A stretch of 20,132 bases of DNA from a virus: positions 1 through 20,132 of the IMG/VR virus record IMGVR_UViG_3300025674_000517. The stretch is one strand, 5' to 3'. Shown piece by piece: positions 4,522 through 19,731 of the stretch (the first letter of the stretch is position 1; every line of letters begins with the position of its first letter). The translations under genes were made by a program, and so were the position numbers. The notes beneath the pieces are model-generated. The model was not told the DNA's origin. It ran no database searches and saw only the letters and a program-made list of their open reading frames with translations.

Positions 4522-5392
4522 TCACATCCTCCTCGTCTTCGTCCTCGTCGAGGAACTCTTCAAGGATGCTACCGGGTCCGGGCTCTACATCATCTGCAGC
4601 AGTGGAATCTTCCATGATGTATCCGTCCAAGTCTCCGCCTTCTTCAATGTCGAGATCTTCGATAAGTTGATTAATAAAGTCCATGAGTTGTTCCTTTTCT
4701 TCTTCTGAGATATTGTTGATGTCCGCGATTTCTCTTGCGGCTGACGTTAGTTGTTCTCTATTGGTCATCAGTCCAAAGCTTACTCCAAGCAGGACCTCTA
4801 AGTCCTCAGGCGTGCCTGAGTTGTCGAGCCAGAATACATCCAGCTCTTCGTTTCTTTTGCCCCAAGGCATGACAGTCTGGAAGAAAGCCTCGAACCTCTT
4901 GCCCTTACCTTTGGTACGGTCAATAGCCTTGGCCATCTTTTCTGACTCGTGTCGTCGCCACCTTGCGTGTGGCGTAGGCAGGCGATCCCCAGCACAGATG
5001 TGTGCCATGGTGCCGCCCATTCTGAGGATGGCATCGATCTCATTCTGGTAGCGAACGTCGTCGATAATGACGACTTGTTCCCAGAACTTGTGGCCTTCTT
5101 CCAGCTTCTTGTCTTCCTTGTCTCGGATCTCTTTGATCTCTTGCAAGGTTAGCTTGACCCAGTGGTCTGGATCTTCAGCTCGTCGAGCAGCACCTTCAGT
5201 CTGACAGAACTCTCTGTACTCCTTGGGGTGTGTCTCCTTGGGGAACCCTGCCTCTGCTGAAGCCCGCTTCAGGGCACCAGCGAACGAGACACGGTGTGGT
5301 GTAGCGCCAGCCTCGAAGGCTAGCTTGCACAGGTACTCAGCAGCGTGTGATTTGCCGCAGCGTGCCTGTCCAGTAAGTCCGATGATCTCCAT
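4508..5392 (-). CDS. Deoxynucleoside monophosphate kinase-like protein with acidic C-terminal extension
   Basis: I start it at ATG 5392, where the protein opens MEIIGLTGQARCGKSHAAEY: a first beta strand and Walker A loop (G8 to S15). An in-frame start 25 codons upstream lies inside the preceding gene and would add an unrelated stretch. VVIIDDVRYQNEIDAI with a following arginine-rich lid (HARWRRHESEK) fits P-loop dNMP kinases, which phosphorylate dNMPs for the dNTP pool. The kinase-like part ends near residue 205. Residues 208-294 add a predicted helix pair (NREQLTSAAREIADIN; SEEEKEQLMDFINQ) and a tail dominated by Asp and Glu, which I cannot assign. The start overlaps the DUF4406 stop (TAATG). 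Confidence 0.8.
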   Translation of the reverse strand: MEIIGLTGQARCGKSHAAEYLCKLAFEAGATPHRVSFAGALKRASAEAGFPKETHPKEYREFCQTEGAARRAEDPDHWVKLTLQEIKEIRDKEDKKLEEGHKFWEQVVIIDDVRYQNEIDAILRMGGTMAHICAGDRLPTPHARWRRHESEKMAKAIDRTKGKGKRFEAFFQTVMPWGKRNEELDVFWLDNSGTPEDLEVLLGVSFGLMTNREQLTSAAREIADINNISEEEKEQLMDFINQLIEDLDIEEGGDLDGYIMEDSTAADDVEPGPGSILEEFLDEDEDEEDVNETD

Positions 5393-5730
5393 TATTCCTT
5401 CTCCTCTGGGAGAGGGAGTTCGTAGTAGATCTCCAGACCCTTGTTCTTGGCATGAGCCCATTCCCAATTGGCTCCCTTGCTCTCTTCCCAGCCTTCTAAG
5501 AAGTAGATGGCATCTGCTTGGTCGAGTGCATACAGATCACGGCGTGCAGCACGCATGTAATCCAGCGGGGTATAGTCTAGATTAGGGTCAATACCTGCTT
5601 CGAGATCCATCTCTGCTGGGTTCAGTACGTCCCAGCCGATGGCTCGAAGCTGTGCTGCCTTGACATTGAAGGCAGGAAAGTTAAAATTTTTTAGGCCAGA
5701 CATAGGTCCGGCAATGTATATCTTTTTCAT
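5392..5730 (-). CDS. DUF4406 / nucleoside 2-deoxyribosyltransferase-like protein
   Basis: The protein starts MKKIYIAGPMSGLKNFNFPA, the characteristic opening of DUF4406 proteins, small Rossmann-like proteins related to nucleoside 2-deoxyribosyltransferases. Further family features are the conserved region NPAEMD and DLYALDQADAIYFLEGWEES, followed by GANWEWAHAKNKGLEI. With 112 residues it matches the family. ATG 5730 overlaps the polymerase stop (TAATG). An in-frame ATG nine bases upstream, within the polymerase gene, is also possible; GGAG lies three bases before that one and twelve before the chosen one, so the start is not settled. Its position between DNA polymerase and a dNMP-kinase-like gene suggests a role in nucleotide metabolism. 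The exact reaction is unknown. Confidence 0.85.
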   Translation of the reverse strand: MKKIYIAGPMSGLKNFNFPAFNVKAAQLRAIGWDVLNPAEMDLEAGIDPNLDYTPLDYMRAARRDLYALDQADAIYFLEGWEESKGANWEWAHAKNKGLEIYYELPLPEEKE

Positions 5731-7532
5731 TAGTGGCATTCGCTCCAGTTGGCACCGATCTGAGCTTCGGAATCGACAGGCATACGAATGCCCAGCTTTT
5801 CTCCAGCCAGTACGGAGCTTGAGGTAAGGAGTTCGCAGAGTTGTTCTGCGTCGTCAGGATGACACTCCCACTGCATCTCATCGTGGATAAAGCCAAGTTG
5901 GTTAGCCCGAAGGCCAGCTTCCTTGACACGCTCGTTGGCAATGATACACCATTGCTTAGAGATGATAGCACCGCATCCCTGCAGCAGCACGTTCAGGCTC
6001 TTGTGAGCTGAGCGCACAGGACAGCGGCGTCCGTCCAAGAGCTTGATGTAGCCCTTAGCTTCTGCCACCATCTGACTGTCATCGATAAGCTTGGCCAAGG
6101 CAGGCAGGTTCTTGAAGAAGTTACTCTTCAGTTCCGCACCTTTCTTAGCAGAGCCACCCACAACACTCCCGATCTTTGCATTGCCTGCGCCATAGATCAG
6201 GGCATAGATGAATGTCTTGGCTTGGTTACGAGTCTCCAGACCCGCAGCGTTCTGGTTGGCGGTGTGGATATCACCGTTGAGAATCTCATCGGCGTACGCA
6301 CCACCATCCATTGGCGCCATGTAGTGAGCCAGAGCACGCAGCTCCAGACCACTGAGGTCAGCACCCACCTGAACCATACCCTCGGAAGGGATCCACAAGG
6401 ACCGTGCTGCTTTATCAGACGACACCTGTTGGATGTTAGGTTGGGTAGCTGCGGTACGACCAGTGACCGTACCTAAGGTCTTGAGGTTGCCATGGATGCG
6501 CCCGTCTCTGCTGTATCCTGAGCGGGCATTCCAATCTTCCACCTGACCTCGAAGCTTATCAGTCTCCCGATACTCGAGCAGTAGCTTGGCTTCTGGGAAG
6601 TCGAGCTCAGCCAGCTCGTCTGAACCACAGATAGGCTTGCCAGTGTCAGGGTTGACCTTGGCCTGCCAGCCGTACTTCTCCTTGAATCGATCAGCGATTT
6701 GCATAGAGCTGCTCGGGTTGAAGGGATGCTTCTTCTCCCAAGGAGGACCCTTCTCGAGTCGTTCCTTGATTTCTCCTTGGCCCTTGCCTGTGACTGCACC
6801 CTTGGTTGGGTACTTGACACCGGTCACTGGATCCAACCAGTAAGCGGGCTTTTTCATAATCTCAATGCGGTCTGGAAAGATACGGCGCAGCTCGTCTTCG
6901 ATCCCTCTCTTGCGAGTGAGGATCTCAAACAGGTACCGCTCACCACGCTTGATGTCGTAGTTCCAGCCACGTGCTGTCTGCTCCATGATGACCTTGGCGA
7001 AGTCGTGCTCGAACTTCAGTACCTCAGCAGGTACCTTGTCCTTGCAGTCCTTAGTCAAGTGCTTAAAGACATCCACGTTGGTACGTACGTCTTGCTGACA
7101 GTACCGGAACATCTCCTCGCTAAACTCTTCCCAACCGCCGTCGTAGTCTGCCTTCTCGTTCTCTCCATAGTAGAGGCCGAGGTTCTTGAGGCCGTAGCCT
7201 CCAGCTGGGCAGGCACCACGGTCAGGCCAGAGCAGCATTGCCATGAGCAGCGTGTCCACAATCTTTACAGACTCTGGCAGCTTGGTGCCCATGATCCTCT
7301 CCATGACTGGGATGTCATAGCCGAGGATGTTGTGGCCGATGATCGTGTCTGCATTGCAGAGCAGATCCCAGCCCTCTTTAATCTGGTGAGGTCGGAAGCT
7401 GTACATCTCATTGGTCTGGATGTCCACAGCCACCAAGCAGTGCACCTTTGTACACTCCGGCTTAGGCTGCCCCTTCTGGTCGAGGACGATCTCGTGTAGA
7501 CCATCGCCTTCAATGTCCCATACTAGGTGCAT
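5730..7532 (-). CDS. DNA polymerase, family A (T7 gp5-like) with 3'-5' exonuclease domain
   Basis: Replicates the phage genome. The start at ATG 7532 has GAGG five bases upstream and gives a 600-residue protein; an ATG eight codons earlier is possible. The N-terminal proofreading domain shows MHLVWDIEGDGL (Asp6, Glu8), NADTIIGHNILGYD and YCQQDVRTNVDVF. The polymerase domain shows motif A GADLSGLELRAL (Asp392), motif B RNQAKTFIYALIYGAG (Arg435, Lys439, Tyr443) and motif C FIHDE (His550, Asp551, Glu552). It is about 100 residues shorter than T7 gp5. Much of the difference lies between the exonuclease region and FNPSS, where T7 carries its thioredoxin-binding insertion, so it probably does not use host thioredoxin in the T7 way. 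A tyrosine at 443 (T7 Tyr526) is retained. Confidence 0.97.
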   Translation of the reverse strand: MHLVWDIEGDGLHEIVLDQKGQPKPECTKVHCLVAVDIQTNEMYSFRPHQIKEGWDLLCNADTIIGHNILGYDIPVMERIMGTKLPESVKIVDTLLMAMLLWPDRGACPAGGYGLKNLGLYYGENEKADYDGGWEEFSEEMFRYCQQDVRTNVDVFKHLTKDCKDKVPAEVLKFEHDFAKVIMEQTARGWNYDIKRGERYLFEILTRKRGIEDELRRIFPDRIEIMKKPAYWLDPVTGVKYPTKGAVTGKGQGEIKERLEKGPPWEKKHPFNPSSSMQIADRFKEKYGWQAKVNPDTGKPICGSDELAELDFPEAKLLLEYRETDKLRGQVEDWNARSGYSRDGRIHGNLKTLGTVTGRTAATQPNIQQVSSDKAARSLWIPSEGMVQVGADLSGLELRALAHYMAPMDGGAYADEILNGDIHTANQNAAGLETRNQAKTFIYALIYGAGNAKIGSVVGGSAKKGAELKSNFFKNLPALAKLIDDSQMVAEAKGYIKLLDGRRCPVRSAHKSLNVLLQGCGAIISKQWCIIANERVKEAGLRANQLGFIHDEMQWECHPDDAEQLCELLTSSSVLAGEKLGIRMPVDSEAQIGANWSECH

Positions 7533-17014: not shown

Positions 17015-17285
17015 TGCGGCCTCCTTTAAACTGTCGCTTGTAGCGTGGGTGGAACCGAAGGTCGGACCACTTCTTGTCCGTGATCAGAGGCTCAGGTGCA
17101 CCACTAAGTCTGGCGGCTTGTTTGGCCGTAGCGAATGCCACAGCAATGTCTGAGAGCCGTGCCATACGGACCATTTCACCGAGCCCCAGCTCGTAATCGA
17201 AGGACGCTTGTGGTCCCTGTCCTGTGATCGTGCTGTTCGGGGCAAATGAACAGATGTCACCCTTTTTGTAAACTTTGTCGCCCAT
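17007..17285 (-). CDS. Hypothetical protein (92 aa)
   Basis: The ATG at 17285 has AAGGAAA about seven bases upstream and lies 29 bases inside the end of the ClpP-like gene. The protein begins MGDKVYKKGDICSFAPNSTI, has an alanine-rich helix (MARLSDIAVAFATAKQAARL) and a basic end (RFHPRYKRQFKGGRNG). No family is recognised. It shares the overlapping arrangement of its neighbours. Confidence 0.75.
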   Translation of the reverse strand: MGDKVYKKGDICSFAPNSTITGQGPQASFDYELGLGEMVRMARLSDIAVAFATAKQAARLSGAPEPLITDKKWSDLRFHPRYKRQFKGGRNG

Positions 17286-17907
17286 TTGCGATTTCCTTTA
17301 CTTCTTCTTCCGTGTACAGGCGATCCGAAACGTTCGGATTCATATAGCCTGAGGTAAGCTTGCCGTTCTCGTCAGGAAAGACAACAAAGTATCCATGACG
17401 GTCAAAGGCGTCGTATGCGTTCTGCATCTTGAGTAGCAGATTGGTAGCTCCAGTTAGGTCGGGAGCGCCTTGATAAATCGAGGCACCAGCAATACCATGG
17501 TAAGCCTGAGGTGCAGGCTCCTTGGTCGAGTCCTCGAAGGGGAAGTGGAATCCGATCTTAGCCTCAGGCCAGATGTCGGTCTTCTTCCCATTCCAGAACA
17601 TAAAGGCTGCGGCACTCCAAGCGCCTACGCCCCATGCTTCAGTGTTGTACTCGTTCTTCTTGATGAGGTCTGCGAGCCTGATGCCCGTGATAAATGTGCC
17701 ACCACCGGAATTGATGGAGATCCATTTACACTTGGGATTGTCGGCCATGAGGACCTTGACCTTGGTCAGGTCTTCTGGGACCACCTCGCCTTGGAAGACG
17801 ATGGTACCGCCTGCCTGAACGCCGGGTGTCGTGTCTGGCACGAATGATACATCGGCTGCACATACGGCTGGACCGAGTGATAGTGATAATATTGTTGCGA
17901 GCTTCAT
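17257..17907 (-). CDS. Exported ClpP/crotonase-fold protein, probable serine protease
   Basis: ATG 17907 overlaps the upstream stop (ATGA) and gives 216 residues; a GTG two codons earlier is less likely. The start MKLATILSLSLGPAVCA is a signal peptide with a plausible cleavage after Ala17. The body follows the ClpP/SppA pattern: KWISINSGGG (67-70, oxyanion glycine loop), TGIRLADLIKK, then GVGAWSAAAFMFWNGKK with Ser98 in the nucleophile position, and AKIGFHFPF with His121 in the catalytic histidine position. It resembles predicted periplasmic proteins of bacteria (COG3904-like) rather than cytoplasmic ClpP or a capsid-maturation protease. The early location and export suggest action on the host envelope. 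The target is unknown. Confidence 0.8.
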   Translation of the reverse strand: MKLATILSLSLGPAVCAADVSFVPDTTPGVQAGGTIVFQGEVVPEDLTKVKVLMADNPKCKWISINSGGGTFITGIRLADLIKKNEYNTEAWGVGAWSAAAFMFWNGKKTDIWPEAKIGFHFPFEDSTKEPAPQAYHGIAGASIYQGAPDLTGATNLLLKMQNAYDAFDRHGYFVVFPDENGKLTSGYMNPNVSDRLYTEEEVKEIANGRQSLQKG

Positions 17908-17978
17908 CGGCACTTGTCCTTACTGAGCAGGATGCACATGATAAGGTAGATGCCGATGATGAATACGACGGCAGACAT
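17904..17978 (-). CDS. Tiny membrane peptide (24 aa)
   Basis: A 24-codon frame begins at ATG 17978, with AAGGAG about six bases upstream, and its TGA overlaps the start of the ClpP-like gene. The peptide begins MSAVVFIIGIYLIMCILLSK and ends with four mostly charged residues: one membrane helix with a cytoplasmic-type basic end. The ribosome site, the overlap and the lack of any other use for the 74-base gap support it. It may be a leader that couples translation of the exported protein or a functional membrane peptide. Confidence 0.6.
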   Translation of the reverse strand: MSAVVFIIGIYLIMCILLSKDKCR

Positions 17979-19353: not shown

Positions 19354-19731
19354 TTACCGATCTAAGTAATCGGCTAGTAGTCTGCATCTTTCAGCAGAAG
19401 TTAAGTAGCCTTCTGCAGTATTGCAAGCAAGGCATAAAGTTCCTCTAATGTTGTTGCCGTCTGTGATGGCATGATCATGATCGACAACAAGACTATTGAG
19501 CTGGCCCTTTTGCGAGGTCAGCTTAACGCCACAACAGTCACAATGCGTTTTGGATAATGCTGCGGCATACTCTTCTTGAGTAGCAATGCCGCCTGCTTTG
19601 CACCAAACCTTCCAGCGAACGTAAGGATTTCGTCCTTCTCTCCAGTTGAGGCAATCATCGCATTTGCACTTGCGGCTGTTGTAAGCAGTGCTACAGGCTA
19701 GCCCATGGACTGAGCATTGGGGTGTAGTCAT
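19354..19731 (-). CDS. HNH endonuclease of the endonuclease VII (T4 gp49) family
   Basis: The 125-residue protein carries a zinc-binding and beta-beta-alpha-metal core: HCDCCG (Cys64, Cys67), LVVDHDHAIT (Asp84-His85-Asp86-His87) and IRGTLCLACN (Cys100, Cys103, Asn104), the endonuclease VII pattern. The first 30 residues are a separate Cys-rich module (CSVHGLACSTAY then RKCKCDDC), similar to short N-terminal modules in many phage HNH proteins. Family members either resolve branched DNA or act as free-standing homing-type nucleases. A lone HNH gene at the edge of the early region fits either. The ATG at 19731 has AGG about ten bases upstream; another ATG four bases earlier is out of frame. Confidence 0.88.
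   Translation of the reverse strand: MTTPQCSVHGLACSTAYNSRKCKCDDCLNWREGRNPYVRWKVWCKAGGIATQEEYAAALSKTHCDCCGVKLTSQKGQLNSLVVDHDHAITDGNNIRGTLCLACNTAEGYLTSAERCRLLADYLDR

Follow-up and report, generated by a model that had tools for sequence, protein, structure and literature searches.

The window, a virus record analyzed over its full length of 20,132 bases, carries the replication genes of a T7-like phage, with a single-subunit RNA polymerase, a metallophosphoesterase, a gp2.5-like SSB, a primase-helicase, a family A polymerase, an exonuclease, a dNMP kinase, a dUTPase and a ribonucleotide reductase. The nearest named DNA polymerases (37-39% identity) are mostly those of Roseobacter CRP phages and pelagiphages, and we infer that the host is a marine alphaproteobacterium. 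Upstream of the RNA polymerase gene, where no structural genes were seen nearby, lies a gene for a ClpP-fold protein together with a very short open reading frame (Table 1; L027 denotes IMG/VR contig 3300020393_000006, a syntenic relative of the window phage). In T7-like phages the block upstream of the RNA polymerase gene is the early region, and by this gene order the ClpP-fold gene is probably made early. The sequence-only reading had also assigned it to the early region; its position agrees, but no promoter above chance speaks for early expression, promoters and terminators being at chance level. No repeats were found around the gene.

Table 1. Features of the ClpP-fold locus, in window coordinates.
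Feature	Position	Strand	Remark
Downstream neighbor, 92 aa	17007..17285	-	Conserved in L027, 68%
Exported ClpP-fold protein (predicted export), 216 aa, Ser98 and His121	17257..17907	-	Stop codon 17257-17259
His121 codon, putative general base	17545..17547	-	Alignment and profile match to ClpP
Ser98 codon, putative nucleophile	17614..17616	-	Alignment and profile match to ClpP
Signal-peptide-like residues 1-17, predicted cleavage VCA/ADVS	17857..17907	-	Hydropathy and sequence inspection; inferred
Single-TM peptide ORF, 24 aa	17904..17978	-	ATGA overlap with ClpP-fold gene start
Upstream neighbor, 395 aa	17988..19175	-	Conserved in L027, 37% identity

The ATG of the ClpP-fold gene (17905-17907) stands 8 nt downstream of AAGGAC; for an alternative GTG start at 17913, giving 218 residues, the spacing to AAGGAC would be only 2 nt. 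Codon usage favors this frame (CAI 0.69 versus 0.58 and 0.62 in the other two, with the phage genes as reference), and the start of the 92-residue gene overlaps its 3' end by 29 bases. The predicted N-terminus reads MKLATILSLSLGPAVCA, followed by ADVS, and on inspection the VCA-A site resembles a signal peptidase I cleavage site, with no lipobox. Its most hydrophobic N-terminal 12-mer exceeds that of all other proteins among the 18 genes (KD 1.88; others ≤1.45). Hydropathy and cleavage-site inspection agree on the export signal proposed earlier, and the N-terminal segment is a putative signal peptide for periplasmic export.

The short reading frame before the gene, likewise described previously as a tiny membrane ORF overlapping the start, was recovered as such: it encodes MSAVVFIIGIYLIMCILLSKDKCR, in which a single 17-residue segment is strongly hydrophobic (KD 2.87), carries the Shine-Dalgarno-like site AAGGAGA just before its ATG, and shares 4 bases with the start of the ClpP-fold gene. 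No homologues of the 24-residue peptide were found, and for that reason its translation is to be regarded as putative.

Profile, structure-model and PDB-sequence comparisons all pointed to the ClpP-like fold that had been claimed from the sequence. The Pfam CLP_protease family matched with E 0.0017, just under its gathering cut-off, and a search of the PDB with the family profile returned only ClpP among the 60 matches listed (E 6e-9), with the catalytic serine and histidine in register. A single-sequence AF2 model (pLDDT 38.5) was discarded; the model of the mature protein used here was built on an alignment of only 4 sequences and has block-mean pLDDT values of 68-83 for mature residues 11-100, falling below 50 from mature residue 105 (residue 122) on. 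ClpP was the best match in VIA-align (Listeria ClpP; Z 11.7, with an rmsd of 1.8 across 95 residues); the top Foldseek rows were also ClpP, SppA was matched as well, and the best viral structural matches included the exported relatives of phages RaK2 and Atu_ph07. The ClpP fold is accordingly supported for the first ~110 mature residues. In the model Ser98 (mature residue 81) lies at the start of a helix following a strand, like the nucleophile of ClpP, whereas confidence is already falling off around His121 (mature residue 104); neither alignment nor model pointed to a catalytic Asp. The window protein shares with ClpP (MEROPS S14) the fold of this core and the register of Ser and His, but differs from it in its predicted export signal, in the unassigned Asp and in its likely periplasmic location, where no unfoldase partner is expected. 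ClpP itself has a Ser-His-Asp triad and forms a heptameric barrel that cooperates with an AAA+ unfoldase in the cytosol.

Direct tblastn matched only bacterial plasmid proteins and a jumbo phage of Vibrio (34% across 91 aa), and no close homologue was present in any collection searched; a peptide-pattern search of IMG/VR and GTDB genomes for close relatives, and scans of IMG/VR with the 395-residue neighbor, the Vibrio phage protein and the Rhodobacterales subfamily, likewise returned nothing. More distant relatives, first gathered by a profile containing the window protein, are widespread: among the genomes sampled, a six-sequence profile picked them up in 155 of 293 from the Ruegeria order and in 75 of 398 from its phylum. 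On a family model built without it, the window protein scored 65.6 bits, compared with at most 4.5 bits for 2000 shuffled sequences, so its similarity to the family is beyond chance. The family is known but has no assigned function, and the window protein is one of its divergent members; in a tree of the core it forms the longest branch, with its placement not settled, and the family profile aligns with it only up to about residue 130. A cytochrome c Pfam match farther on (residues 137-208, E 0.0095, below cut-off) was rejected, the sequence having no CxxCH motif.

The 216-residue protein has SGGG at 67-70, GAWSAAA with Ser98 and GFHFPF with His121. Gly69, Gly70 and Ser98 are invariant in the alignment (65/65 each) and Ser67 and His121 are each present in 64/65, counts that are partly inflated because the relatives were picked by a profile containing those columns. 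The assignment of Ser98 and His121 to the ClpP catalytic positions, made originally from the sequence, is supported by the alignment and by the profile match to ClpP. Cysteines at positions 96 and 100, flanking the serine in a CxSxC motif, occur in 63/65 sequences; the window protein has A96 and A100, and the cysteines are also missing from the Serratia plasmid protein WP_241389690. Being common but not universal, they do not define the family by themselves.

In many relatives the N-terminus contains a signal-like or membrane segment, and exported or membrane-anchored members are common in Pseudomonadota. Examples are the Ruegeria pomeroyi protein WP_011241798 and the Serratia plasmid protein, which have the size of the window protein, a signal-like N-terminus, the SxGG loop and the Ser and His positions; identity is about 25-34% and confined to the core, the C-terminal part not being confidently alignable. 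Among phages, relatives were found in PBECO4, 121Q, RaK2, K64-1, Hallingskeid, Vibrio 2.275.O, VnaP, Atu_ph07 and Atu_ph08, several with signal-like N-termini, and in most stretches read they lie away from capsid genes. Those in PHROG 26024 and 30575 (RaK2 gp038, PBECO4 gp097, 121Q, Vibrio 2.275.O, VnaP, Atu_ph07) are phage-encoded like the window protein and share its signal-like N-terminus and ClpP core, but come mostly from large phages and retain CxSxC; the window protein matched neither PHROG at E 0.01. Several of their genes, unlike the window gene, adjoin NAD-salvage or dCMP deaminase genes. The NAD-salvage neighbors belong to RaK2, Hallingskeid and Vibrio 2.275.O (nucleotidyltransferase), with a nicotinamide phosphoribosyltransferase gene in addition in RaK2 and Hallingskeid. 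A signal peptide had been thought unusual for a phage ClpP-fold protein; this may apply to the head proteases, but it does not apply to the exported ClpP-like family, given its members in jumbo and other phages and its frequency in Pseudomonadota.

Comparison with L027, whose RNA polymerase and metallophosphoesterase are 64% and 89% identical to those of the window, showed that the ClpP-fold gene and the 24-residue ORF are both absent there while gene order is kept on both sides: the stop of the 395-residue gene is followed by 8 bases and then by the ATG of the 92-residue gene. A search of the whole contig did not find the ClpP-fold gene elsewhere. As a syntenic phage lacks them, both ORFs are dispensable in that lineage, and in the two genomes compared they were gained or lost together; the ClpP-fold gene is therefore a helpful extra and not a core function. 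Both ends of the two-ORF segment (17285 and 17988; compare L027 6490-6505) lie at TAA(A)GGA-like ribosome-binding sequences, which suggests that the segment may have been exchanged at a short shared sequence.

We favor, with about even confidence, the reading that the gene encodes an accessory, probably early, periplasmic ClpP-fold hydrolase that uses Ser98 and His121 to act on an envelope protein or peptide. The signal peptide would send the protein to the periplasm, where, to judge from profile and model comparison, it would fold as a ClpP/crotonase-type domain with the conserved Ser98-His121 pair as its putative active site. Probably made early, from the block upstream of the RNA polymerase gene, it would hydrolyze or clip a protein or peptide of the envelope, from either host or phage, probably soon after infection begins. 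Since ATP is not supplied to the periplasm, the enzyme would act with no ATP-driven unfoldase to help it. A comparative jumbo-phage study (PMC7824862) proposes that patchily distributed jumbo-phage proteases, ClpP included, may be deployed against the host; the argument fits the window gene but is no evidence for it. In the literature searched (COG3904; phage periplasmic or ClpP-like exclusion proteins) nothing was found on the exported ClpP-fold family, and thus no paper giving it a function, although it is widespread in Pseudomonadota. A compact phage with the gene and a sister phage without it constitute a simple system for probing a role in the envelope and for asking whether phages turn periplasmic proteolysis against their hosts.

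The protein could instead have little or no catalytic activity and exert its effect through binding, for example by co-assembling or competing with exported ClpP-like proteins of the host, which are encoded in about half of the sampled genomes of one candidate host order. The lack of an identifiable catalytic Asp, the divergent C-terminal part and the loss of the cysteine pair would all be accommodated by such a role. However, although identity to the nearest relatives is about 30%, the protein has kept Ser98, His121 and the SGGG loop, a pattern suggestive of constraint on the active site, and we regard a purely binding function as rather unlikely. Lower still is the probability we give to superinfection exclusion, in which the exported protein and the coupled 24-residue peptide would alter or block an envelope receptor or DNA-entry protein. 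The ATGA overlap, the predicted envelope destination of both products, the early-type position and the accessory presence are consistent with it; against it, the PADLOC defence-system library gave no match up to E 0.1, no link was found in the literature searched, and in the other phage relatives inspected the annotation shows no such small ORF immediately ahead of the gene, although ORFs of this size are often left unannotated. A broader formulation, that T7-like marine phages carry a two-gene module in which exported hydrolase and translationally coupled peptide reshape the envelope early, e.g. excluding competing phages, is a long shot.

SppA-like housekeeping, that is, clearance of residual signal peptides, or of small membrane peptides produced in the course of infection, would suit the several small membrane proteins encoded by this phage group and the SppA matches by fold, and SppA and NfeD-type S49 peptidases are envelope-located members of the ClpP-class fold, as proposed here for the window protein. 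These S49 enzymes use a Ser-Lys dyad and have a different architecture, whereas the window protein has the histidine of ClpP in register, and we consider this role improbable. Least credible, to the point of being very improbable, is a ClpP-class prohead protease for capsid maturation. Such head proteases are common in phages, and the model for ClpP-related phage head maturation proteases (NF045542) gave a weak match (E 0.022; 14.7 bits against a cut-off of 120), but the N-terminus is signal-peptide-like, the position ahead of the RNA polymerase gene is away from any structural genes seen, and the syntenic contig does without it.

Other genes around the locus were noted in passing. The 395-residue neighbor matched no Pfam or PHROG family, but a kinase-like motif, DDLHQGNLGYFNGNLVCIDFG, stands directly before its C-terminus and reads DLHGGNIAYWNGNIVCIDFG in the L027 counterpart (5220-6494, + strand); from this motif it may possibly be an early protein kinase-like protein. 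At 19354-19731 (- strand) the window encodes a recombination endonuclease VII-like protein (PF02945, E 3.2e-10). L027 has two RNA polymerase-type genes: besides the main one, a divergent gene of the T7 type stands upstream of its early genes (7-1716, + strand; PF00940, E 5.5e-23), the corresponding part of the window phage falling beyond the window. An early-region protein of L027 (2381-2839, + strand) starts with a signal-like segment and weakly resembles Destabilase, the i-type lysozyme family (E 3e-5, below cut-off).
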